A DNA stretch of 64,000 nt from Albula goreensis (taxonomy: Eukaryota; Chordata; Actinopteri; Albuliformes; Albulidae), in assembly GCA_022829145.1 (NCBI GenBank), contig CM040743.1:8318646-8382645 (forward strand). The letters run 5' to 3'. A program made the translations under genes and the position numbers. Within the stretch, counting starts at the first letter, position 1. Each line of letters begins with the position of its first letter. Below the pieces are notes generated by a model that had not been told where the DNA came from, ran no database searches, and saw only the letters and a list, made by a program, of their open reading frames with translations. Below are positions 21,313 through 59,627 of the stretch, one piece after another.

Positions 21313-21366
21313 ATGGGGAGGAAAAAGATTCAGATCCAGAGAATCACGGACGAACGCAACAGACAG
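21313..21366 (+). CDS. mef2d: mef2d coding exon 1: start of the MADS box (residues 1-18)
   Basis: The 54 coding nt give MGRKKIQIQRITDERNRQ and end at CAG|GTGAGT, phase 0. GRKKIQI is the N-terminal DNA-contacting arm of the MEF2 MADS box. RITDERNRQ, rather than MEF2A's RIMDERNRQ, is the MEF2D (and MEF2C-like) form. The ATG was chosen because all MEF2 proteins start at this residue and because the Kozak context is strong. The exon end at codon 18 is the position conserved in all vertebrate MEF2 genes. Confidence 0.98.
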
Positions 21367-26040: not shown

Positions 26041-27084
<1,044 letters not shown>

Positions 27085-28387
27085 TAGAACTGGTATGACC
27101 TCTGTTGGGTCTGGAACGAAGATGGTCCCTGGGTTTTGATGCATGGCACAGGCCCTCTTAGAGCTTGCTGTGGTCTCTTGAGGCCTCCTCTGTGAGGTGT
27201 GTGGCCTGCACCATGACGGTGGCCTTGGGGTGTGGGGAATTCTCTCTCCCTCAATGGGCAACACTCCTGCACCCCAGGAGTCCCACCAGTTTCCCAACCA
27301 AGTGGGTCTGGGCTGGGCTGAGGTCATTGGGCCATCATTCCACCCTTATTTTTCATTGAGGGGTGGGAATGGGGGTAGTATCGTGGGAAAGGGGCGGGGG
27401 GACCATGGACCACCTGTGGTTAAGAGCCCGAAAGCCTGTCATTGGGTGGGATTAGGGGCTTACGTGTTCCCATGCGCGACTGGCCAGGAGCCCAGGAGAT
27501 GAAGGAGAGGAAAGCTGCTGCCACCTCTACCAGACTCAGCCAATCAGAGTCCCCCTTTCTCCAGTCAAACCTCACCACCCTTGAGTTGCATTCAGTAATG
27601 AGTTACTGTCAGACAAGACTAGCTTTTTTCAATGATTTTTTTACAGAACAGTACAGAATACAGAAGAGTATTTATTTAACGATGTTGTACAATTTCATAC
27701 GTGACTGTTATTGTAATAATTGTTTTAGGCTTTTCCTTTTGTAATATCACACTATGCGCTATTGCCCTGGGTTGACTGGCACAGTCAGCATTCACACAAT
27801 ACGGGCCGGTTAAGAGCCGTGGGGTACACCGAGGTCCTCTCCTTTAACTGGATATGTAATCCGAGAGCCCATAAACAAGGCTGTTTTAACACTTCTGGTG
27901 GAAAGATGAAGTGGGAAAATACAGGGGACTATGTGACATGCGAATGTGGACGTTAACGCTACATTGTGCTCAAGGCCAACTGAGCACCATGCAGAAACCT
28001 TCTCCTCAGGTCAGGTGACATTGAGAGTATAATGTACTTGCCTTGCCTGCTGCAGCCTGCATAATGCAGCTCTTTTTTTTGCCAGTTTTTCAGTTTTGTA
28101 ACATTTATAAATGTATATACACGTATATACATAGCCTTGTAACATAATAGAGCACACCAACTTTGCCTCAGCGTGTTGAAGTTCACAGGTTTCTTTCTCC
28201 CAATCCATCTCTGTTTCCCTCCCTCTCTTTATTTCTCTCCATATTCATATTTATAATATGCTTCAGTTTCTTGACAACAAATTGGCCACAAATTTTATGT
28301 CAGCTGTTGCCACGACAGTGCTAACATAATCCGTAAACCAGCGGTCAACAATAACAGCGATATCAGCAAGTAGGAAAAATATTCTAT

Positions 28388-28677
28388 TTTTGTCCCTCAT
28401 TTTCGAATTAAAAATACAAACTCAAATATGCTACAGGAACTTGATTGTCAACGCATTAAAATACATAGATGATGTTAGCAACAATTCCCGTTTACCTAAA
28501 ACAAAACAAAATCACCCCTTCCTATAGACAGAAATAATAGCAATATCACCAATATAGCAATTATATTCATAGTATAGCAATAATATCCTAATTTTGTCTC
28601 TCTTTTTCAAATTCAAACTCAAATATGCTACAGGATAACTTGACTGTCAAAGCATTACAATACATAAATGATGTTAG

Positions 28678-28678
<1 letters not shown>
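28388..28678. repeat. Tandem duplication of an approximately 200-bp AT-rich segment
   Basis: AAACTCAAATATGCTACAGG followed by ACTTGATTGTCAACGCATT and ATGATGTTAG occurs near 28419-28482 and recurs near 28615-28678 with a few changes. The preceding TTTTGTCYCTC-TTTTTC also matches. The second copy ends in a poly(A) run. Confidence 0.75.

Positions 28679-28710
<32 letters not shown>
28678..28710. repeat. Poly(A) tract (about 31 nt)
   Basis: An uninterrupted A run directly follows the second copy of the 200-bp duplication. It could be the tail of a retrotransposed element or simple slippage. Confidence 0.9.
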
Positions 28711-28711
<1 letters not shown>

Positions 28712-29084
28712 AAATAACCGGCCCATAGACTCAAAACACAGTCTAACTCTATCTCTGTGGAGCTGTGGAAGTGTTGCAGTATGCTGTGCTGTATGTGCCT
28801 TAGTGTATCGCGGTCGGGCAGAGGGTTGCGGTTGGGGGAGCTGGGCTGCTCCGGGCCACATCAGAGCAAGCCTGACTGGGCCTGGCAGTGTGCTCTAAAC
28901 GGCCTCCTCATGCAGTATTCACATCCCGCTCACTCATGGAGGCCTGGGTCCCTCTTCCACAGGCCTCAGGCTGGGATCATGGGGGGAACACGCTTCCCAT
29001 AGCAGTGGGGAGGTCCCCCAAAGCCAGCCGACAGACCCTGGACCTCATAACGATCTCTGTGTTCATGAAGCACCTCAGAGCTTG

Positions 29085-29325
29085 AGTACTGATCTGGGAT
29101 CAGGTTTCCTCTGTTTGTACCTTGTCCTTATCTGTTATGAGCTAAAATGCAAATTGATCAGGGACTGTGTTTGTAAAACAGTGAAAGTAAAAGTGCTGAT
29201 CCACTGTCCATATTCTGCTTTTACTCATGATGAACTAAAATGCATGACTGGTCCTAGATCAGGGACATGATTCTCATAATGCATCAGGTCAGGATAAAGA
29301 AGGGGTACAACTGATTCTAGACCAG
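29085..29325. mobile_element. Interspersed fish repeat with GATC-palindrome ends
   Basis: CTGATCTGGGATCAGGTTT opens the element. Two internal half-units share GARCTAAAATGCA plus ATCAGGGAC, and the far end reads CTGATTCTAGACCAGCTC. Repeats with 'gatcctagatcagcactc' ends are frequent in several teleost lineages. The copy has no ORF and is diverged. Confidence 0.55.
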
Positions 29326-29614
29326 CTCTGCGGCTTGTTCCTTGTGTTTCCCTGTTTCAAGCTGGAGAACATCCAGGCCACGTGTGAGAACTCACTGTTC
29401 ATGCGCAGAAAAAAAAAAAACGAAAAAAAAAACCCATTTCCCAGCTTACACATTGGTCTCAGTCGTAGGTGTAGTGACACTGACACCAGTAAATTGAATA
29501 GCATTTTAAAAACCCAGGCAGTACTCCGCCTCTCCACCCTCTTCACCCCCTTAAAACGCTACTTGAAAGAGGCGCGTGTGAAGACAGAAGCTTGTATTCT
29601 CAAGCTATGAGCTG

Positions 29615-29815
29615 TTTTTTTCCTTCCCTCCCTCCTTCCCTCCCTCTCTCTCTCTTACTCTCACTCCTTCTCCTCCTCGCTCATGCACGTGTAGGGACTG
29701 TAGGCAGCCTGCTCTCTCCTGCCAGACTTTGTTAATCCGCTTGACTGCAGAGCCTAAGCACGAGAGAGAGAGAGAAAGAGAGAGAGGAAAAAGTGTGAGA
29801 GAGGGGCAGCGAGAC
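29615..29815. repeat. (CT)n and (GA)n tracts in inverted arrangement
   Basis: CT-rich sequence at about 29618-29672 and GA-rich sequence at about 29762-29790 are complementary and lie about 100 nt apart, so the intron RNA could form a stem here. Confidence 0.7.
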
Positions 29816-31752
29816 GAATTGAAAGATGGAGAAATGGAAGATGGACATTTTTTTTTCAACAGAGTGTCAAGGCTGGGAAGATCTTGACATGGAAATGCGA
29901 TGCATACGGGATCCGTTCCTGAAGGGGGTGGGGGGATGGGGGCGGGGGGATGCCGAGTTTCCACAATGCATCCCAGCCAGCGTCGCGCACTGAGGTGCCT
30001 GCAGCAGCAGGAGCGGAGGACAGGTTCTGATCCTGTTTGTGGGTTAAGGTGACCCCGCACTGCCGAGCACTTTCGGCTAAGTTCCACTGCGCCACAGGCC
30101 GCCAGCAAAGCTCCTGGCCGTTGGAGGGGCCTTGCTAGCGTAGACGCAGAGTTACATGGTCATGGACATCCGCTTAAAACGGCGGTTGAGATTTGTGTGT
30201 CAAGCTGGGCATACATGTATGACGTTGGCAGGACATTGAGAGGGACTTACTGTGTGATGTGCTTGAGATGGATCTCATTAGGTGCTTTTGATGCTTATTG
30301 TCTTCCATTGTTCATCTAGGAAGTCTATTGAAATTACTTTTTTTTTCTGCAAGAGAGGCTTGTAAAGATATCAGATGAGCAATTTGATGACAGAACGTTT
30401 AACAAATCAAAAATACAGTGCACACAAGTACAATAAAAATTTACAGTTCATGAAATTATGAAACAGAGATAATGTAAAAATTGTCATCAAAGGGGTAAAT
30501 GTTCTGGTAGTAACCCCGCCCCTTCCCTTGCAGTCGCCCTGGTGATTCTCTCAAGGGCTAAGCCCGATCTGACGGATTCTTCAAACGTCCTTAAGGACCT
30601 GTCACATCCTCACATTCCCTAATCCGTCTCTCGGACCTCTTCGGGAGCCTTCTGCCCAGACGCTGTGCCGGACAGGTCATGTGACCCCTGCGGTTGCCTG
30701 GATACGGTCTCACCTACCTCGCTCCTCGCAGCACCTTGCAGAGCGATCAGATCGGCAGTGCTTAAGGGGAATTATAGCCACAGAATCCCTCCTCCATTGT
30801 CAGCGTGCTTATTGTTAACCAGTTGGCGAAGGGAGCATGTGATAGAACATGGGTTTGCGTTGGGATTCACAGGCCATGGTGAAGGAAGATGTTGCTGTAG
30901 ATATTGTGGTAAAATAAGGAAAATATTTTTGGTGAGCTGAAAAGCTGGCAAGTCCATGTATTAGACGCAGAGACCCTTGGAGTGTTCAAGTCCCGGCCTG
31001 AATCAGTGCTAGATACCTCTATACACGTAGTAAATGACAAGCCCAGATTGTCCGATGGATCTGTTCTCTTCATTATGTATTTTTTTCCCTCATATTTTCT
31101 TTAGTTCTTATTTTCTTTTTAATCCAGACTGGGATAGTCTGTTTATGTGCAGTTATGCAGAGTACAGGTATACAGTTATACGACGTAGGGGAAGTTTCAG
31201 GACTTACTGCAGAAGAAGACTTTGCTTCTCCAGTCAAAGTCCACTCATGTAATAGCGCAGTGGCTGATATGGTCCAGGGAATTTAAAGGAGGGGTGCACA
31301 ATTTATGTCCCTCAGGGCTGGTGAACACCAGCGCTCAAGTATTTCATTTTGTCATTGAAAGTCAAACCAAAGCTGATTGAAATTAAGCCGCACCTTCCAG
31401 CTGCCCTCAGTGTAAAAGATGGTAGGGAAAGGCTAATGTAATGATGCAGGACTTGGCGTGGAATAGGAGATGAGCCTAACAGTGTGTAGAACAAGAGTAA
31501 TGTTGTCATGTCCCCTCCGCCACACACACGGTGCCTGCCAAACCCCCATGTTGGCGGACAGCCTCTCTGGCGGGCTGCATTGAGTGGAGACCCGGGTTCC
31601 GCTCTCCTTCCCCTCTCCCAGAATGCCCCGGGGCCAGCGCCCTGTCGTGCGCGGCAGCGCGCGGGCAAATGGGAAGTGGCATCACGCACTGCTGCTGCCC
31701 ATGCTGTCACAGCGAGCTGGCATCACCCCAGCCACGGCCCAGATTGTGCCAC

Positions 31753-32340
31753 GGAGAGAGAGAGGGGGAGAGCGAGAGAAAGAGGGAGAGGGAGACAGAG
31801 AGAGGGAGAGCATGAGCGAGAGAGAGAGAGAGTGAAGGAGAGAGAGACAGAGAGAGAGGGAGAGTGAGAGAGAGAGACACAGTGAGGGAGAGGGAGGGAG
31901 AGAGGGAGGGAGGAGGCAAGGGCAGGCAACGAAAGGTAGAGTTGAACAAGAGGAAAGAGGGAGGGTGAGGGCGGCGTGTGGAGAGATGGCAGGGAGGAGG
32001 GGGAGGGAAAGGGAGGGGGGGAAGAGGGCTGGCGATTGGACAAGAGAGACACAGAGGGGGAGGGGCTGGATAGAGAGCGGCCCAGCCAGTCACTGGCTGT
32101 GGAGCTCTGCAGGGGAATCTTACCCTGGCAACACGAGGGAGAGAGGGAGGGGGAGAAAGAGAGAGAGAGAGAGGGAGGGAGGGAGAGAGTGGGAGAGAGG
32201 AGGACTGAGGAGGAGAGAGATGGAGAGAGGGAAAGAGGCAGAGAGAGAGAGAGAGGGTAATTGGAAGAGGGTCAGAGGGGGAGAGGAGATGGGGGTGAGG
32301 GGAAGAGAGAGACAGTGAAAAAGGGAGGGAGGGGTGGAGA
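31753..32340. repeat. Extended purine (GA-rich) tract, about 590 nt
   Basis: The sense strand is almost entirely A and G, mostly GAGAGAGGGAGG-type repeats, with short mixed interruptions at about 32030-32130. Long polypurine/polypyrimidine mirror tracts can adopt triplex (H-DNA) structure. The apparent long ORFs on both strands here are low-complexity artefacts. Confidence 0.9.
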
Positions 32341-33524
32341 GTGCTGGGAGAGTGGGAGGTAAGGGGGCAGGTGTTCAAACAGAGCTGCTGGAGAAGCAAA
32401 GCTGATGAGCTGGTTGAGAGTTACCAGCAAGTGCTCATCCACTGCCTAACACTGTGAACCAATGATATACCAAATAGCCAAGATAGCCTCACCAAAACAC
32501 CATTTATTGGACAAGATTAGTGAGGCCCTTGCAGGCACACAGCAGATTTGTCCATTTCGGGGGCCTTGCTACCTGCGGACGAAAGCTGTCACTTAAGACC
32601 CTTAAGGGAGGATGCTGATATGTAGAAATGAGCTCTGATATCTTAGCTCCACGTTCGTTTTGTCTTCTGGCTCTGGTCCTGTAACCTTAGACCCGTAAGC
32701 CCTGAGCTGTCGGGGAAGCGAGTTAGATACTACGGTTCCTGCCCACGGTTCGTTATTCCATTTTGAGACTAACTTGGTGGTCTCTTATTAGTAGAAGAAA
32801 AGTGATAGAATCTCTATGAATATGATGCATTTAACCTGCTAGACTCTATCAGTAAAAGGCCTCTGTTACAATCCAATAAAATGACCTTTTGTGTATACAG
32901 GTTTTTTGTATAGTTTACAGCACACATAACTCCCAAGCATGTACATATTTCCATAAAGACAATAATGGGAACATGAAGTTAAATTCCTGTTTACTTTTTT
33001 ATGCCAAAGTCAGTACAAAGATAGTATGATGAAAAAATAGTGCATAATTAATGAAATTATTAAGTGCATGACGTTTTATGAGGCTCTTTTCCTGTATGGT
33101 GTTGTGTATTCACCACTGATTGAGGAAGCTTGGGCTGGTCTCCTCTCCTATCTGAGAGAGCAGTGAGGTGAAGGAGGTGTTTCTGGATTCAAACCCGTGA
33201 CAGAAAGAGAGGCAGAAAGAGTGGAGCAGGACGTGGGGATCTGCCAGTATGTTCTCACTCCCCACCTGAGCGTGTCTCGCTGAAGAGAACAGGGAGAAAG
33301 GGATGGGAGGAATATTGAGGGAAAGAAAAGCGGAACGAGGGAGGGGGGAAGGAGGGAGAGGAACATGGTGGGCTAGGAGGGTGGGGAGGTGGAGAGGCTA
33401 AGCTACCAGCAGCAAAGTTTCCATGACACCCAGCAGTGCATAACCGCCAGAGATTGTGTGGGACTCATCACACCTCAATTTTCCATCATCTGGCTCTGGG
33501 GATTGTGCATTTGGTGACAAATGG

Positions 33525-33615
33525 CTGATCCAGGATCAGCGTATCCAGCACTAATCCTCTCCTCAGCCATTATTTGAAAATAGCTGACACAGATCCTGGA
33601 TCAGCACTCCTGGGG
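33525..33615. mobile_element. Short interspersed element with GATCC(A/T)GGATC palindromes
   Basis: GGCTGATCCAGGATCAGCG and CAGATCCTGGATCAGCACTCC flank about 50 nt. They are near-complementary and match the end type of the element at 29085. Confidence 0.55.
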
Positions 33616-34515
33616 GTGGGGAACTGTCTGCACCAGCTGGAGGAAAGAAGGGGGGGGAGTGAAGGGAGAGGATGTCAGAGAGAGAGATGTCGGAAAAAAA
33701 AAAGGAGGCAGGTAAAAGTATTTAATATGTGCGGCGTACATACACTGAGACAGATGGTTGAGGTTTTAAATGATAGGTACACGCACACACGCTCGTATGT
33801 ACTGACACAAACATAATCTGTCAATCACATCTTATTTGATATCGACCCATGAAAACTCTTTACAAAGACCTCTGCCACAATGCTGTTTTATTCACAGAAG
33901 TGATTTCCGTCTAGGAGAAAGTATCGGCCCTATAGTCTTCATCTCAAGATGGGAAAAATGTCGACTGACTTCAACAGATTATATATCACCCATTGGATAA
34001 TTCATAGTCATACATTTTTCAAGATATTCAAAAAAATTAAAAATGTATGAAGGAGGGTCATTTTTAAAAACCCATGTTCCTTTCGCGAAGTGGTTTTCCC
34101 CCATTGAGCCGTGTTAAGAACATGACACCGAGCAAAAGTGAAAAGAGAGAGAAAAGGAGAAAGGGATGTGAAGACAGGAGCAGGGGATGAGTATAGCTCC
34201 AGGCAGAAGGACAAAGCGATGTGAAGGAGTTTGAGAGGAAGAGGAGAGAGATGAAGAAGGAGGTGTTGGCAGTGGGCAGTGGGGTATAACCGAAACAGCA
34301 CAGCGCTAACTGCAGCATGGTGAGCCTGGCCTAGCGGACAGAACTGTCCTCGTTATATCCTACTGCAAAAAGATCACAACACTCCCATTCCACCCCCCAA
34401 CACTTTATACCCGCTGAAATCGGAAGCACCACGACTGCTGGTCTCTCTCGCAGATCGATGCGGCGTGCACGTCCGCCATTGAACCCCCCCCCTTAAAAGG
34501 ACTGCGGATCCGGTA

Positions 34516-34617
34516 ACGGGCCGAGGCGCAGTGGCTGGGCTCCACACGTACGGGCCGAGGCGCAGTGGCTGGGCTCCATACGTAAGGGCTGAGGCGCAGT
34601 GTCTGGGCTCCATACGT
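34516..34617. repeat. Minisatellite, three 34-bp GC-rich units
   Basis: Units start at 34516, 34550 and 34584: ACGGGCCGAGGCGCAGTGGC, then TGGGCTCCACACGT. The third copy has several substitutions (AAGGGCTGAGG, GTGTCTGG). Each unit keeps multiple CpGs. Confidence 0.93.
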
Positions 34618-35563
34618 ACGTCCTCTCCCAGGCCTCTCTTCCCCGCGCTCTAATCAATCCCCAGGCCAGAGCAAATATTCCCTCTGAGACGCGGCGGAGA
34701 CGCGGCGGAGACGGCCCCCGTAGGGCTCTGTGTGTGCTTGACCTGTACCGAAGTAATAATGGCTCCACGCGTGAGACCCGCATCGCTTAGCAACAGCACC
34801 AGATCAGGCCAGGTGACAGGGTGAGCGCTCAAATGTAATGTGTTTTTAATGTTTAGTTTCCCTCTTAGGGGACAGGACATGGCGTGTGGCCTTGAAAGCT
34901 GCCGGCTTTTGTATTCGCTTTCTTAGATTATATACATTTTTACTTTTTTTTGGGCACATGTTTGCCTTTGTTCCTTTGCCTCGGGTAACAGTGGTGATTT
35001 ATTAACAGGTATTAAGTACTAGGTATTAAGGTATTATGTTGAAGAAAAAAAACCTGGTATGTTTTTTTTTTTTTCATTTCTCAAGGTAAATGGTAACTAT
35101 CAGGAGATCGTATGCTGAACGGTATTGAACACATGCACTGAAAAGGTTATGTAAGATACGACTTTTATTCTTTCAGTTTGTGTCATGCTCTGAGTCATCC
35201 ATTGCTCTTTCTCTTTTTTTTCCCTTTTTGGTGATAAACGTGGAGGCTAAACTTGCAAAAGTGTCTCGCCAGCATTTTACAGGAAACCGTAAACACCGAT
35301 TGTGAAATACGGAAATATAGATTGTGAAATATAATCTAGAACGACTCCACCACAGCAGGGTGCTCATGATAATGATGATGATGATGAAGATGATGTTAAT
35401 GATGGCTACCATTGTGGTGTCGTGTGGCAGTTGTGTAATTGGCAAAGAAGACGAAAAGGGAGAAGGTGTCAGAAACCAAGTATCTCTTCCATGTCATGTA
35501 TCTGCTCCCCTCTCCCCCCCCTCCTCCTCCACCTCCTCTTCACCCCGCTCTGCGCTCTGACAG

Positions 35564-35701
35564 ACATTGCGAAAGAAGGGTTTTAACGGCTGTGACAGCC
35601 CGGAGCCAGACGGCGAGGACTCCATAGACCAAAGCCCCCTGAACGACGACAAGTACCGCAAGACCAACGAGGACCTGGACATCCTCTTCAAACGATATGG
35701 A
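35564..35701 (+). CDS. mef2d: mef2d alpha-1 exon (mutually exclusive, residues 87-132)
   Basis: The 138 nt encode 46 codons, phase 0 on both sides (GACAG|ACATTG … GGA|GTGAGT). The peptide starts TLRKKGFNGCDSPEPDGEDS and ends DLDILFKRYG, the ubiquitous alpha-1 version of MEF2D. In mammals this exon contains the PKA site RRAS with Ser121. Here the aligned residues are R118-K119-T120-N121, so the acceptor serine is absent. S98-P and S110-P (proline-directed sites) are kept. The exon is spliced as the alternative to alpha-2, 109 nt downstream. Confidence 0.97.
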
Positions 35702-35810
35702 GTGAGTACCGCATCCTTTACTCCTTCTAATCTACCCTGTGTCTCTCTCTCTCTCTCTCTCTTTCTCTCCCCCGTCCCGGTTTCCCTCCTTCCTCCATTG
35801 GGAATCGAAG
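35702..35810 (+). other. 109-nt intron between alpha-1 and alpha-2 with a distant branch point and AG-exclusion zone
   Basis: The donor is GTGAGT and the acceptor ATCGAAG. Good branch-point matches are CTAAT with A at 35730 (29 nt from the donor) and TTTAC with A at 35720 (19 nt). None is seen in the usual 18-40 nt window before the acceptor. Between 35730 and the acceptor AG (35809-35810) there is no other AG. The (CT)n tract fills that zone and offers PTB-type sites. The acceptor itself has a weak purine-rich -3 region (CGAAG). Confidence 0.8.
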
Positions 35811-35948
35811 GCCCTGAACAAGAAGGGGCATCGGGAGTGCGAGAGCCCGGAGGCCGAGGAGCAATACCCCGTCACCCCCCGCACCCAAGAGAAATACAAA
35901 AAAATTGACGAGGAATTTGATAAAATGATGCAGAGCTATAGGCTGTCA
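35811..35948 (+). CDS. mef2d: mef2d alpha-2 exon (muscle-type, mutually exclusive with alpha-1)
   Basis: The 138 nt give 46 codons, phase 0 on both sides (GAAG|GCC … TCA|GTGAGT), identical in length and phase to alpha-1. The peptide starts ALNKKGHRECESPEAEEQYP and ends EEFDKMMQSYRLS, matching the mammalian MEF2D muscle-specific alpha-2 exon (ALNKK…ECESPE…EEKYKKIDEEFDKMMQSYRL). In mammals the alpha-2 protein escapes PKA-driven HDAC recruitment and activates late muscle genes. Including both alpha exons would keep the frame, so nonsense-mediated decay cannot police exclusivity. Confidence 0.96.
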
Positions 35949-38900
35949 GTGAGTACGGGAATGTGGCTGCATCAGAGTGACAAGTGATGAGCGTAACCCC
36001 ACCCCCACACCTTCCCCTCTGAAAAAAATCACTCACCCCTCCCCCCCTCAACTTCCCTCCCTTCCCCAGGGCCTCCTCACTCACAGCGGTGACCCGGGCG
36101 ACCTGCTGGGTGGAAATGGTCAATATCCACAGGTGTATGGATTGATTGTTTCTGATAAACTGAAAAAAAAAATGCAAACTGTTTTTGAGGAATATTTGTA
36201 TTTGTTTCCATATGCTCCATAACTTTACAAACATTGAATCCAGATTTAACTGTCACATGTACTTCCATTAAAGACTTAAGACCAAATCTATATGTGGAAA
36301 AAATCACATACATTTCTGGAGTAAATACATTTTTAATATCTCCTAAAATAGTGTCTAGAAATATATAGCCCAAGAAGCCTTTGTGTATTGGACATTTTTG
36401 CCCAGCGCACTCTCATCACCCCGCTACCTAAACCTAACACATGCGTGGAGGGTTCACTTAAGTAGGACAGAAGCCACTAACGCTAACAAGTTAAATAGCT
36501 GAAAAGCTCATACAATAATCCCACTTCTTATTGGTTCTCTGCTTCCAGAGCGAACTTCCAATGAACTTCCCCAACCAAAACACCCTCGCACCCCCACCCC
36601 CACCCCCACCCAACCCTCACGATTCATTTGATTTTACTCTTTTTACTCCGTGCCTTAAGCGTTCCCTTTGTCTCCGTTTCCTTTCCTCCCCCTGGGCTCA
36701 CCCCGTGGATCTCTCACAGACTTTTGTGGCATTGTGACTGGGTTTTCTGGCTTCGCCACAGGGGGAGACTGAGGGTACACTGTATTGCCTGAGACGCTCT
36801 CAGCTGTGCTCGTGTCACAATGTGTGGCCGGAGCAGTAAGAGCTTTCATTGGCCCGGTCTGGTCAGGTGACCTTCCTTCTCCTTGACATAACGCACTGTG
36901 TTGCGTCTGTCCCCTCTCAACAGCTCTGTTCAGAGCAGCACAGCTATTTGTCAGCTATTTGTCACCACAATAATCAGCTTATCAATTACATATTATAAAG
37001 GCTATGGTAACAGAATAGGCAGTTAACATGTTTAATTTGGGGATTGTTTTACACAATTACATTTTGTGTCACAGTAACACAGTCGATGCTGTTAACAGGA
37101 AGGAAAGCAACAGCTTTGCTTCCCATTTGTGAGACCTGCCACCACCCTGGCGCAGCGATGGCTTCCAGAACTGTATTTACTGAGAGAAAATCCTCTTTTG
37201 AAAGTAATGAAATATGTGTTTCTTCATTTCTGAGAGAAGCACAAACAAAAAAAAAAAAAACACCCCATCCAGTTCAACAGGAACTAATCGTTTGATCTTT
37301 TATTATGGTGTGAATTATATATGTTGTTCCACACACCCACAGAAGCCATGCAAGCTTCGTCGGGGTGTTATACATTTTGCATGACAACCGTGACAGATAC
37401 GCTTACAAAGGCTTTCCCGCCTGTATATTTCCATCCATTTCCATATTAAACAGGCTGCATTCAGTCCGCGTTTGATTGGGGTGGTGTTATGCAGTTAGGA
37501 GCTTTAATGGATTTTCAACAGCGGCCGGTTAAGGGGAGGAGTTCGAACCTGCCCCTGGAGGGAGACAAGACGGGGGCCGGTACTGTTCTGATTTAAGCAA
37601 CCCCCCCCCCCCCACCCTCAAGAACAGCACTGAGTGCCAGTAGGAAAGTGTAGTACACAGCACGGTTCTCACGAGCAGGGCCACAGTCTGCATGTAACAG
37701 CCAGAGGCAGGAGAGCGCAGTCTTAATCCCTTCCCTCCCATCTCTCCGTAAGTGTTTGTGGCAGGTAGGAGCCATGCTGGATGAGTCAGGGAAAGTACAA
37801 AATTTCTGCTGTCTCTCTTCCTTTTTTTTTTAACCTTGGACACCCCCTCCTGATCTCATTTTTGTCGTTTCTTGTCATTCCGGTATCTATTTCGCAAATT
37901 CCCTGGTTTTGTTGCAAGATCCGGATAATTATTTTTATTCTTTTATTATTTTTTAAGAAATGTCCCATTGATGTGTACTCATCAACAACAGAGTTTGGTT
38001 GCTAGGTTTTATGTCATTTTTAAGTCATCACTAAATATGAATGTGACTTCAAGCCAGTTTGTGCAAAGAAAAAGGAAGTGTATATAAAACAACAAATCCA
38101 AAAAAAGGTGGAGGGCAGTAAGAAATAAAGACAGTCTTTTCCTCCTAGTTTGTGTGCATAAAACAGCCTTGGTTTCCTTGTGGATACCCCCCCCCCTCCC
38201 CTCAGGTTTCCCAAGGTGATTTTTGGAGGGCAGTCAGGTGACAGGCAAGAATGCCCGTTATTGGCATCATCTCGTATACAGGCTGATATCAGCCTGCCTC
38301 ACACCACTTATACTGGTTGCCTTGCTTTGTTCCCATTTTCTCTGGAGGACCATCAAAATGAAGCCCCCAGTCACCTGCAGGATAGCTGTGGAGAGATGCT
38401 CCTCTGAGCCCTCACTACTGTCACTCAGCACAGAGACACTGTCCATCTCAATGCTTAAAATGTTATGTGTATGTTATTATGTTACAGATGACCAGTTTCA
38501 AAAACAACAACAAAAAAAAAAAGCTGATGATATTTTTAATAATACCATCAAAGAATTATGCCATAGGAGTGTCAGCTTTGTATCTGTTGAAAGTGTTGCT
38601 TTACATGACCTTGGGGGGAAAAAGAAAAAACCATTGAAATTGATCTTGGGCTAATGCTGCTTCATGTGGTCAGCTGAAAAATCAAAGGAGACCCCCCCCC
38701 CCCCCCAAAAGTTTGAAGAGGGGGGGAACATGCCCTCCAAGGCTTCTGGGACAGAGGGAACCAAACTGGGGCATGAATTTAATTTGTTCTGATATCCAGG
38801 CAGACTCGAGCACGGCTGTGTGGAGGGTGAGAGGAGAAAAATGGGTTAGTTCTGCTGCAGGGAGGATGAGAGACTCCTGGGTTCAGTCCATCACCAGAGG

Positions 38901-39681
38901 AGTGAAATGATCACACACACACAGGAGGGCGATTACATACTGTCTTATACAGCGGGACTGATTGTGGGTCAGACCTTTTGCTCTTTGCAGGGATTATCCA
39001 TTATTTATTATTTATTACCTTATCTTTAAAAAGTTGTATTTATACTCTTCATTATTATTATTATTAGTAGTAGTACTAGTAGTAGTAGCATTTATGAATT
39101 TTATGATCTTAGTTGATGAGCAGGTGATCTAAAAGTTTCTCTGGTAGGATTTCTCAACCACGCATCAATGCAATAGTTATTGTTGATGGCAGTCATGCCT
39201 CTATCCCCTCCCCCTCAGTAATGCCCCATAGCGCCATACCCAAGGACAGCCATAAAACCAAGCGCCCATGAGGTCATCCTGCTTGAGACTGAAGTGCTGT
39301 TTGTGCTGCTTGTCCCCTGCCCCCCAAACCTGTCACTACTCCCTCTGCTTTGCTGCCTGGCCTGCTGTTCTATAACCCATGACCCCCTAAGCCACAAACC
39401 CCAGACTGGCCTAGGGTTGATCACTACACTGTCCATGAGTTGAAGGTGTGACAGGAGAGACAATGAACAGGGACGGATAGCGTCCCAGCTGACAGGTCAC
39501 ATGATCACATACCTCAGATCCATAAAGCACAGACCAATAGAGAGCATCCATTGACAGAATTTAAGAATTTGCTAATGTTAGTCACAATGTAGAAGAGAGG
39601 TTTATGGGTTATCAGTTAAATGGAGGAGGGAGAGTTTAGAGCAGCAAAAGTGCTTTCAAAAGTAAAGGACTTTTCCTGGCC

Positions 39682-39739
<58 letters not shown>

Positions 39740-42654
39740 AATGCTGCCTTTTTGGATATTTTTCTTGTGTCTCTGACTTAGGATTCGAGGGTTAATCTTT
39801 CTAGAGCAATTTTTCATGCCTGTGACTGTGTCTGCAAGTCTTTATAAATCTGCATACGATTACACGTGTCATGAATACACATGTTATAGCCTTGTTTTGA
39901 CAGAGAGAAATGATTTGATAGTAAAATCAGGGTCTTACAGAACTGAAACATAGCCAGTCCATCCACTCACTTCTCTCTTTATGGAGAACTTCAGCTTGCC
40001 AAAGATCTTAGCTTTGAGCTGTGATGGTGCAAGCATTGATTCTGCTGAAGCACAGCAAAACTGTTTTGATATCTTAATTGATCAAACAAAAGCTGCTCGC
40101 TGCACAAATTCCCTATTGGTCCAGTCCTTAAGCCTATTATGAGGTCATTCTGAGAGCCTGACTGTCACTGAAACCCACTGAGAGATCCCATAATTCCCTG
40201 AATCCTGTCACTTTAAACAGATTTAAATTAATGATGTGCTGAATATGTTTGAGCTGAATTTATTCTAACTGAATTAATGAAAAATGTATCCCAGAGCTTT
40301 GTGTAGCATGTCACACGATGGCATGTTGATGACCTGTTGTTTTCTCTTTGGTGTGGTCCACATCTGCATTTATGCTAAGGAGTGAGTGGCGGGTGCCGAC
40401 ACTAAGTAGATGCCGAGAGTAATAGAAATTGAATTAAAAGTTCCAAATTCAAGGTTATATCACAGTGATGACTATAAATACGGGCCTTGAAGTCGACAGT
40501 GCCAACAGCAATTGTTTTAACAACTTCCAGAATAAATTCTTCTACCATTTTATTAGACCTAACCAATCAGTGCTACCTAAAGGACAACAGTCAGAGATTT
40601 GGACAGTCGTATTTGCCTACTGGAAGAGACCTGATTGACAGGAGTGTGAAAAAGCATTCTCTGACAGGATGGCTATAAAATGATCAATCATTCGATTTGG
40701 TCTATAATTTCTGCAGTTGTGAAATCCTCTCTATTTAAACCCAAAGTGAACATGTTTATCATTGTGGTTAGTTCAAGTGCTTGTGATCTTCAGACAGCTC
40801 TTGTTCTCTGACTAGATAAACAGCTCATTCCTCTTTGATATTCTAATTTCCAGGCAATGCTGTACTTAGGAAATGAGCTCTTGTGAAAAACATCCCCTTC
40901 AGCCAGTATATGTCTTGTGTGATTATCCCGATGGTCTACAAAGAAACAATCCCGTGTTAACAATCAATAGCCTGTGTCTAAGCCAATTACAATCTAAAGC
41001 AGCCACTGCAGACATAAATTTGGGTCTGCAAATGTTGGAGTGAGACTGGAAAAATGAAACATTCTTTGTAATAAGGAAAAAAATGAAGATTGATTGGAAT
41101 TCCAAGGCTCTGCCATTGAGGGAGGAAAAAATACAGTAAAAAATTACCATAATGTAAAAAAAAAAAAAAAAAAAAAGGCAACGTAGAGACTCTGAGTCTT
41201 GGGGAAACAGTTCAGCAGATCATAGATCACTACTTATGTTTTACAAAGCGCTGCATTCTGTAATTGGCATCTCCAAAGCCTTTTGTCCAAAAGGTGAGAA
41301 GAAAGAGTCAAAAAGGGGTGAAACAGCAGTTTAAAAAAACCAACTTCTGTAAAGTGGGTCTCATTTGGGACACAAGAGGCCTCGTCTGTCCCACATTCTA
41401 AATATAGAGCCCCAGTTTTTTATTTGCAAAGGAACGAGGTGAAATGGGTTGCCATACGAGCGCAAGTTTTTTTTTTGTTTTTTTTTCCCGTCAGGCTTTG
41501 GATCGTGATGAATCGGCCATTAGTGAAAATGCAAGCTCCGCGACTCCGACGCAGTGGAGCTGAATCAGGTCCCGCTCAGCACCTTCAAAAAACACCTGCC
41601 TCCCACCAGCCTCCCCAACCAGCCAATCGTGGTGCGAATTAACTCGCTCTCGTTTCTCGCTGGGTTCCCCTACGATCCCACGTTAGGCTGCCGGCCCACA
41701 GAAAGGCAATCAGTGTCACGGCCCGTTCTGGCGCGTAATAATCGGGCGATATTACGAAAATCACTTGCTTTCGATTAAAATAAGAACCAGCTCAAAGGGG
41801 TGTGGGCAGGTGGAAATGGGGAATTGTCATGGTGTGGATGGCCGCACTTAACACACGAATTCCAGTTCATCAACTGCACGTAGAAGAAAGGACAACCCCC
41901 TCCCTCCCCCTCCCTAAAAAAAGGGGACATTTCAAAGACATTGTGAGACCATGAGTGACGGAGCTGAAGAAAACTTACAGTAGAAAGAGTGTCGAGTGAT
42001 CAGGGACCCCCCAGTCTGATTCATAAAGATGAGTAGCTTTTTTTCTCTCTTCTGTGTAAATTAGCTGTTACTGGAGAGAGTGGCTGTGCTTCTGGGACCA
42101 CCCCATCCCTCCCAACCAGAGGGGAACTATAATTAGAAAAAACACTATCAATGGAGAACATATGCCAGGCTGCCTATCTGACAGTGTGTAGAAAATGCCC
42201 TGGCTTTTTCATCTTTCCACGTCCTCCGGGTTTTTCGATTTTTTTTTTATTTGAAAGATAACTGTATCACAAGTTTTCACTTGTAGTCTTTCATTGTTGT
42301 TTGATTTGATATAAATCAGTGTAGCATCACTACATGATCTTGTTACATATTATTGGTTAGCGTGGGTTCTCAGCCCAGTATTCTCCTCTGATGTTCTGTG
42401 CAGGTGTATCATGAATTTAAAGCAGAAATTTGGGCCTATGTGCACGTATGTGGACAGAATTTATTTTACCTGGTGTGGTCTTTTTTTTATGGGAGTCTAA
42501 CACCGAACTGCTTGAAATTCTGAGCAAACAGGCCTGCCTTGTGTGTGTTCAGGAAGTGCAAAGAAGAGACACTCCAAGATGGATTGTCAGACTGATTCAA
42601 GTGTACATCTAACACTGTTGTCTCCTCTGGTTTCTCCTCTTTTTTTCCCCTCAG
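35949..42654 (+). other. mef2d intron after alpha-2 (6.7 kb)
   Basis: No recognisable coding sequence was found. An exon-like 63-nt segment at 36070-36132 has splice-like borders but an in-frame stop. Simple repeats include poly(C) runs at about 37603 and 38691, (TTA/TAG)n at 39050-39090 and (TCTA)n at 39682. A moderately CpG-containing segment at 41690-41760 is otherwise unremarkable. Confidence 0.88.
39682..39739. repeat. (ATCT)n tetranucleotide microsatellite
   Basis: About fourteen uninterrupted ATCT/TCTA units, a purity expected of a polymorphic marker. Confidence 0.97.
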
Positions 42655-42865
42655 TCGGCAGTCCCAGCCCCTACTTTCTCCATGCCTGTCACGGTTCCCG
42701 TATCCAATCAGAGTGCACTACCTTTCAGCAACCCTGGCAGCGCCCTGGTAACCACCTCCTTTGTGACATCATCCCTCTCAGATCCCCGCCTCCTGTCGCC
42801 ACAGCAACCAGCGCTCCAAAGGAACACAGTGTCTCCAGGGTTACCACAGCGACCAGCCAGCGCAG
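42655..42865 (+). CDS. mef2d: mef2d coding exon 4: start of transactivation region (residues 133-202)
   Basis: The 211 nt begin in phase 0 after TTTCCCCTCAG and end in phase 1 (GCA G|GTGAGA). The peptide SAVPAPTFSMPVTVPVSNQS and the following DPRLLSPQQPALQRNTVSPG, then LPQRPASAG, are MEF2D-specific. S180 in LLSPQQ is a conserved proline-directed site. The residue aligned with mammalian Ser190 (QRNSVSP) is Thr190. ATG 42682 is internal Met142, not a start. Confidence 0.97.
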
Positions 42866-49387: not shown

Positions 49388-49566
49388 CAAACGGGTACAT
49401 CAGTGCCAGGGCCTCTCCGGGCCTGCTCTCCGTCTCCAATGGCAACAGCCTGGGGAAAGTAGTTCCGGCCAAGTCTCCGCCCCCGCCCAGCCCTCAGATG
49501 GTGAGCAGCCGCAAGCCGGAGCTGAGGGTCATCACCTCGCAGAGCGGCAAGAGCCTGATGCAGCTG
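49388..49566 (+). CDS. mef2d: mef2d coding exon 6: transactivation region (residues 222-281)
   Basis: The 179 nt begin after TTTTCAG in phase 1, so GCA is completed across the junction, and end in phase 0 at CAGCTG|GTGAGC. The peptide ANGYISARASPGLLSVSNGN, then SLGKVVPAKSPPPP, then RKPELRVITSQSGKSLMQL, matches MEF2D (GNGYVSARASPGLLPVANGN … RKPDLRVITSQAGKGLM). The PAKSPPPP element and the RKP(D/E)LRV block are family hallmarks. The frame stays open past the donor for 42 codons, to a stop at 49690-49692. Confidence 0.97.
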
Positions 49567-59221: not shown

Positions 59222-59627
59222 GCCTGTAGCTCACATACCTCATGGTGCCACGCTGACCGTCAACACCAACCCCAACGTGAGCATCAAGTCTGAGCCCGTG
59301 TCACCCAACCGCGACCGGAGCACGCCCTGCACCTCGTCTGCCTCCTCCGCCAGCGTGCTGACCGTGGCCCCCGGGGGCCAGTTCCCAGGGGCCCTGCGGC
59401 TGGAGCCCACCCAGGGCCGTTCGCCCGTCGACAGCCTCAGCAGCAACGGCAGCTCGTACGAGGGGAGCGACCGCGACGACGGCGGCCAGCCCCAGCAGGC
59501 CCAGGCCCAGGCCCAGCCTCGGCCACCCGACTTCGGCCCCGCTATGGCCCTCCTCAGGCCGTCCGCGGAGGCCGAGCAGGAGGCCGCCAACGTCAAGCGC
59601 ATGAGACTGGACACTTGGGCCACATAG
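59222..59627 (+). CDS. mef2d: mef2d terminal coding exon (residues 397-530, stop TAG)
   Basis: The exon enters in phase 2 and ends at TAG 59625-59627. It starts PVAHIPHGATLTVNTNPNVS, then IKSEPVSPNRDRS, which is the phospho-dependent SUMO motif (psi-K-x-E-x-x-S-P): K418, S423. In mammals Cdk5 phosphorylation of the equivalent serine directs SUMOylation and repression. Next is QGRSPVDSLSSNGSSYEGSD (residues 460-479), resembling the MEF2A/C gamma region. A Q/A-rich insert is followed by DFGPAMALLRP and the C-terminal nuclear localisation signal KRMR (521-524) in VKRMRLDTWAT. Confidence 0.97.

Follow-up and report, generated by a model that had tools for sequence, protein, structure and literature searches.

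Mutually exclusive alpha exons in a mef2d gene of Albula goreensis: a predicted steric block from a distant branch point

Exons alpha-1 and alpha-2 of the mef2d gene contained in the window (the whole 64,000-nucleotide stretch of Albula goreensis DNA that was analysed, C3:8318646-8382645) are quite likely to be mutually exclusive by geometry, with the joining of alpha-1 to alpha-2 predicted to be blocked. The best candidate branch point in the intron between them, A35730, sits 29 nt from the alpha-1 donor, and because of this spacing alpha-1 should not be joinable to alpha-2: at 29 nt, donor and branch point would not be accommodated in one spliceosome. Alpha-2 would be spliced from the upstream exon, which ends at 26883, via the distant branch point A35730 and perhaps also A35720, after which the search for an AG would cross 62 nt of pyrimidine-rich sequence lacking both adenine and AG and end at the acceptor AAG (35808-35810). 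As the sequence offers no conventional adenosine branch point, it is most naturally read in steric terms, and I infer from this both the use of the distant branch point and the block. Such an arrangement would give a mechanical reason for the strict choice between alpha-1 and alpha-2 in a central transcription factor of muscle and neurons.

A MADS box, a pair of homologous alpha exons and MEF2D-type downstream exons all point to MEF2D with its alpha-1/alpha-2 pair. The MADS start lies near 21313, a match to the MADS box SRF-TF (PF00319) was found upstream of the alpha pair at C3:8345322 (window position 26677), and the MADS/MEF2 exon ends at 26883 with its donor at 26884. Exon alpha-1 (35564-35701, + strand; 46 aa, TLRKKGFNGC...FKRYG) and exon alpha-2 (35811-35948, + strand; 46 aa, ALNKKGHREC...SYRLS) each have 138 nt, phase 0 and an open translation, which bears out the claim of the first-pass annotation that both are exactly 138 nt in the same phase; its further claim that double inclusion would preserve the frame follows from the same facts (138 + 138 nt). 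The two are tandem homologous exons with 38% identity over residues 2-45. They lie 109 nt apart, separated by a GT-AG intron (35702-35810, + strand, GTGAGT...AAG), inside the 15.8 kb spanning 26884-42654. The next constitutive exon begins at 42655, and later mef2d exons follow near 49414, 55069 and 59286, with the C-terminal KRMRLDTW near 59595. The sequences SAVPAPTFSMPV and KRMRLDTW downstream of the alpha pair are taken to be MEF2D motifs; the labels mef2a, mef2c and mef2d used here are likewise putative. The donors at 26884 (GTACAG), 35702 (GTGAGT) and 35949 (GTGAGT) all miss the U12 donor consensus, and the U12-type signal that exclusion by U2/U12 incompatibility would call for was not found in these introns. 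An open stretch at 36071-36133 was considered as the next exon, which would have provided a 122-nt length-matched control intron, and was rejected as the true next exon starts from 42655; by eye, no counterpart of this stretch was seen in the second mef2d gene of the genome.

The 109-nt intron was scanned for candidates with TNA, a simplified branch motif that was also the one scanned by Corvelo et al. (PMC2991248). Exactly two adenosines occur in this context, A35720 and A35730, the same two that had been singled out as the only good branch-point matches. The best candidate, CTAAT (in TTCTAAT, A35730), lies at nt 29 of the intron and 80 nt from alpha-2, and the secondary candidate, TTTAC (35717-35721 in CCTTTAC, A35720), at nt 19 and 90 nt from alpha-2, both on the + strand like all further intron features. 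CTAAT is enclosed by CTAATCTACCCT (35727-35738), whose counterpart in the second mef2d is CTAACCTACCCT; a shared 12-mer of this kind arose in 67 of 5000 shuffles. Downstream, a pyrimidine-rich stretch of 62 nt (35735-35796) is free of adenine, a feature that goes beyond the earlier description, and includes an imperfect TC repeat of 14 copies with 92% matches (35742-35769). Beyond 35734 the only adenosines are 35797, 35803, 35804, 35808 and 35809, all at most 13 nt from the exon, and none is present in the -15 to -55 region, in which ~96% of human predicted branch points lie (PMC2991248). An adenosine branch point would therefore have to sit at or before nt 33, unless it were one of the adenosines within 13 nt of the exon.

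The AG exclusion zone of this intron measures 104 nt, with no further AG 3' of the donor before the acceptor. The first-pass annotation had also described an AG-free pyrimidine zone of about 80 nt before alpha-2: the zone is AG-free and 64 of the 77 bases between A35730 and the final three intron bases are pyrimidines, but the last 14 nt (35797-35810, ATTGGGAATCGAAG) are purine-rich rather than a pyrimidine tract and end in AAG, where YAG is usual. The purine-rich spacer with the AAG acceptor, GAATCGAAG (35802-35810), is the same sequence in the second mef2d.

According to Keiper et al. (PMC6692369), efficient assembly in vitro requires a donor-to-branch-site distance of ~50 nt; the same paper cites earlier work in which a 35 nt spacing abolished assembly on E1A RNA, and gives a minimum of 52 nt estimated from the human B complex. 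The limit of roughly 45-60 nt assumed earlier for U2-type splicing agrees with the ~50 nt reported there, against at most 29 nt here. Joining of alpha-1 to alpha-2 should be blocked at 29 nt, and is probably blocked at the 37 nt found in the second mef2d, a spacing slightly over the 35 nt that prevented assembly on E1A RNA. Mutual exclusion is described as favoured when a distant branch point lies close to the upstream exon, and for exons of this type the AG is found by linear search over the AG-free zone (PMC1431707); the 104-nt zone seen here is over the 100-nt mark and under the 150-nt candidate set of that paper. With tandem exons of equal phase, branch-point candidates only at less than 50 nt and an AG exclusion zone, the intron has the sequence features expected of steric exclusion. 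That alpha-1 cannot join alpha-2 directly, as had been proposed, holds up as a prediction, with no TNA other than those at nt 19 and 29 and a layout that recurs in the second mef2d.

Part of this layout can be accounted for by composition. An adenine-free run of at least 62 nt arose in just 33 of 20000 shuffles of the C3 intron core and a last TNA at or before nt 29 in 689 of 20000, while all TNA fell within 50 nt of the donor in 2282 of 20000 shuffles for this copy and 3229 of 20000 for the second mef2d on C20, which counts against the steric reading. With base composition alone, the latter arrangement is not rare. The adenine-free run of the C3 intron is unusual, but the locked layout (all TNA at most 50 nt from the donor) is no improbable outcome in an intron with so few adenosines, and A-poverty explains part of it.

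Real introns are a better yardstick than shuffles. The locked layout was found in none of 33 control introns of 70-160 nt from the same genome, among which the longest adenine-free run was 20 nt; these controls are not independent, because the myosin genes that supplied most of them are paralogues. The myosin set was drawn from 67 neighbouring exon pairs at 20 myosin-head loci, of which 28 pairs were left out for want of an acceptable intron, giving 39 introns when the score cut was loosest; 28 of these were 70-160 nt long and the 11 longer than 160 nt were left out. Stricter score cuts gave 24 and 14 myosin introns, again with none locked. Five further controls came from chaperonin genes, one of them fitting poorly (score 1.0), and all control splice sites were predicted with an approximate donor matrix. 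Each of the 28 myosin controls showed a TNA candidate in the -15 to -55 region. Long AG-free zones are not unusual in themselves: in two of these 28 introns the AG exclusion zone spanned at least 90 nt.

Protein searches located alpha-1 exons at five loci in the genome, with a sixth recognised by eye at C1:27.73 Mb (a weak protein-search match), and alpha-2 exons at five loci. The second mef2d (C20) shares the same layout: its inter-alpha intron has 100 nt, a best candidate CTCTAAC at nt 37, an AG exclusion zone of 95 nt and an adenine-free run of 51 nt, after which all adenosines are at most 7 nt from the exon. GTGAGTACC, CTAAYCTACCCT and GAATCGAAG are common to the C3 and C20 introns, with intervening stretches of unequal length; the CTAAY blocks were left unaligned by MAFFT because they are offset by 8 nt. 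A mef2c-like copy on C4 shares the layout as judged by TNA candidates only. Its 147-nt intron has one such candidate, CTCTCAC at nt 30, an adenine-free run of 75 nt and an AG exclusion zone of 142 nt, and all TNA fell within nt 30 in 5 of 20000 shuffles; adenosines outside TNA context (nt 109 and 113-115) stand 32-38 nt from the exon and could provide a weak conventional branch point, so that support from this copy is weaker. Two mef2a-like copies have introns of 73 and 72 nt with TNA candidates at nt 42-43 and 54-55, and are not clearly locked because the candidate at nt 54-55, 18 nt from the exon, would permit near-limit splicing. The idea that every MEF2 copy is locked was therefore rejected, as mef2a does not clearly fit and the C4 copy has non-TNA adenosines near its acceptor.

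The mouse offers a comparison at a different intron length. Mouse Mef2d has the same exon pair, which is mutually exclusive, and a very short intron between them, given as 49 bp in a remark on guide-RNA design in a 2025 paper (PMC12592725), against 109 nt here. In an intron of 49 nt, a branch point that keeps 18 nt or more to the AG must lie within ~31 nt of the donor, and a distant branch point is unneeded. The vertebrate genome searched in this study was that of the window itself, and the mouse comparison uses the published 49 bp. Donor-to-branch spacing would be at most ~31 nt in mouse, in agreement with the 29 nt (C3) and 37 nt (C20) of fish mef2d, although the introns differ twofold in length, and the conserved feature is probably the short spacing and not intron length. 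The short spacing, I infer, is ancient, and branch point and AG were driven apart by pyrimidine expansion, here seen with an imperfect TC repeat; through such expansion 3' of its branch point, an intron that was very short may have come to have a distant branch point with the steric block intact. That vertebrate MEF2D, and perhaps MEF2C, conserves ~30-37 nt between the alpha-1 donor and the alpha-2 branch point, by way of a 49-bp intron in mouse and, in this fish, of a branch point made distant by pyrimidine or microsatellite expansion, seems marginally better than an even bet. If true, expansion downstream of the branch point would be a direct route to distant-branch-point introns. The 49 bp of mouse and the 109, 100 and 147 nt of the fish copies form a natural comparison, both for the spacing rule and for how distant branch points originate.

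Exclusivity could also be imposed by regulators and not by geometry, with PTB-type repression on the CT tract and the muscle activators RBFOX, MBNL and RBM24 deciding between exons whose joining is chemically possible. The tract contains 8 overlapping matches to CTCTCT and 9 to TCTCTC, the alpha-2 acceptor is weak by an approximate score, and all three activators are reported to regulate mammalian Mef2d alpha-2. As an explanation on its own this is nevertheless unlikely, as the branch point it would require is all but missing from the sequence, and regulators pick an exon but do not alone forbid the inclusion of both. RBFOX sites were considered as support and dropped: TGCATG is not enriched in the window (50 observed against 52.8 expected, both strands), and GCATG was not found within 1.2 kb 3' of alpha-2, the first TGCATG on the + strand being at 37378, whereas a downstream RBFOX site has been described for mammalian alpha-2. 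PTB-type repression via this tract may well operate in addition to the steric block.

The block itself would be bypassed if alpha-1 and alpha-2 were joined through a non-adenosine branch point, the possibility of which speaks against the steric reading, or through an adenosine near the AG (35797-35804), such that double inclusion, which keeps the frame (138 + 138 nt), occurs. This is quite improbable given that A35797 is just 13 nt from the exon and outside TNA context, that the arrangement recurs in a second mef2d, and that mammalian alpha-1 and alpha-2 are described as mutually exclusive. Least probable is enforcement by competing RNA secondary structures of the docker/selector kind, which are described in insect genes (PMC5224494) and for which CD55 is reported as a potential human case (PMC5740500). 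The fold of the intron is unremarkable (z-score -0.75, with 47 of 200 shuffles folding equally well), and RNA structure near the alpha pair was dropped, as the surrounding 1 kb, out of the 15.8 kb between the flanking exons, holds no strong inverted repeat and only a single one of 11 nt. None of these three explanations supplies a good alternative branch point.

Steric exclusion through a distant branch point is a known kind of mutually exclusive splicing. A mapped case is that of alpha-tropomyosin exons 2 and 3 (Smith and Nadal-Ginard 1989, cited in PMC1431707 and PMC6692369), and the tropomyosin layout invoked in the first reading of this intron matches it as cited there: tandem alternative exons, a consensus branch point near the upstream donor and a long AG-free pyrimidine tract. 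The branch motif is ggCTAAC in alpha-tropomyosin against TTCTAAT here, and the distance from branch point to exon is 175 nt as mapped in rat alpha-tropomyosin against a predicted 80 nt here. In alpha-actinin and Itga7, likened here by description, a branch point close to the upstream exon is given as the cause of exclusion or as the basis for predicting it (PMC1431707, PMC5062968). Potential steric interference was reported for 57 of 629 human exon clusters by the same spacing criterion, less than 50 bp between donor and predicted branch point (PMC5740500); that set covers human genes, and 'mef2' has no match in the main text of that paper, nor in the main texts, supplements aside, of PMC1431707, PMC2991248 and PMC5224494. 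A branch-point-position cause of MEF2 alpha exclusivity was not found in a search of open-licence literature.

Several minor observations were made on the MEF2 copies of this genome. In the C20 and C4 copies, TGCATG occurs ~470-680 nt downstream of alpha-2. The 3' halves of the two mef2a-like introns are nearly identical, with TGTTGAT and TTTTAT located 30 and 18 nt from the exon respectively, and were possibly kept for minimal-intron splicing or for exclusion. A further mef2c-like copy at C1:64073000-64080000 has alpha-1 from C1:64076123, and no alpha-2 was found there by protein search or on visual inspection of the following ~1.0 kb, so this copy may make the alpha-1 form alone. Strong MADS-box matches at C13:21281157 and C24:1886648, on contigs without alpha-exon matches, may belong to mef2b or SRF-type genes.
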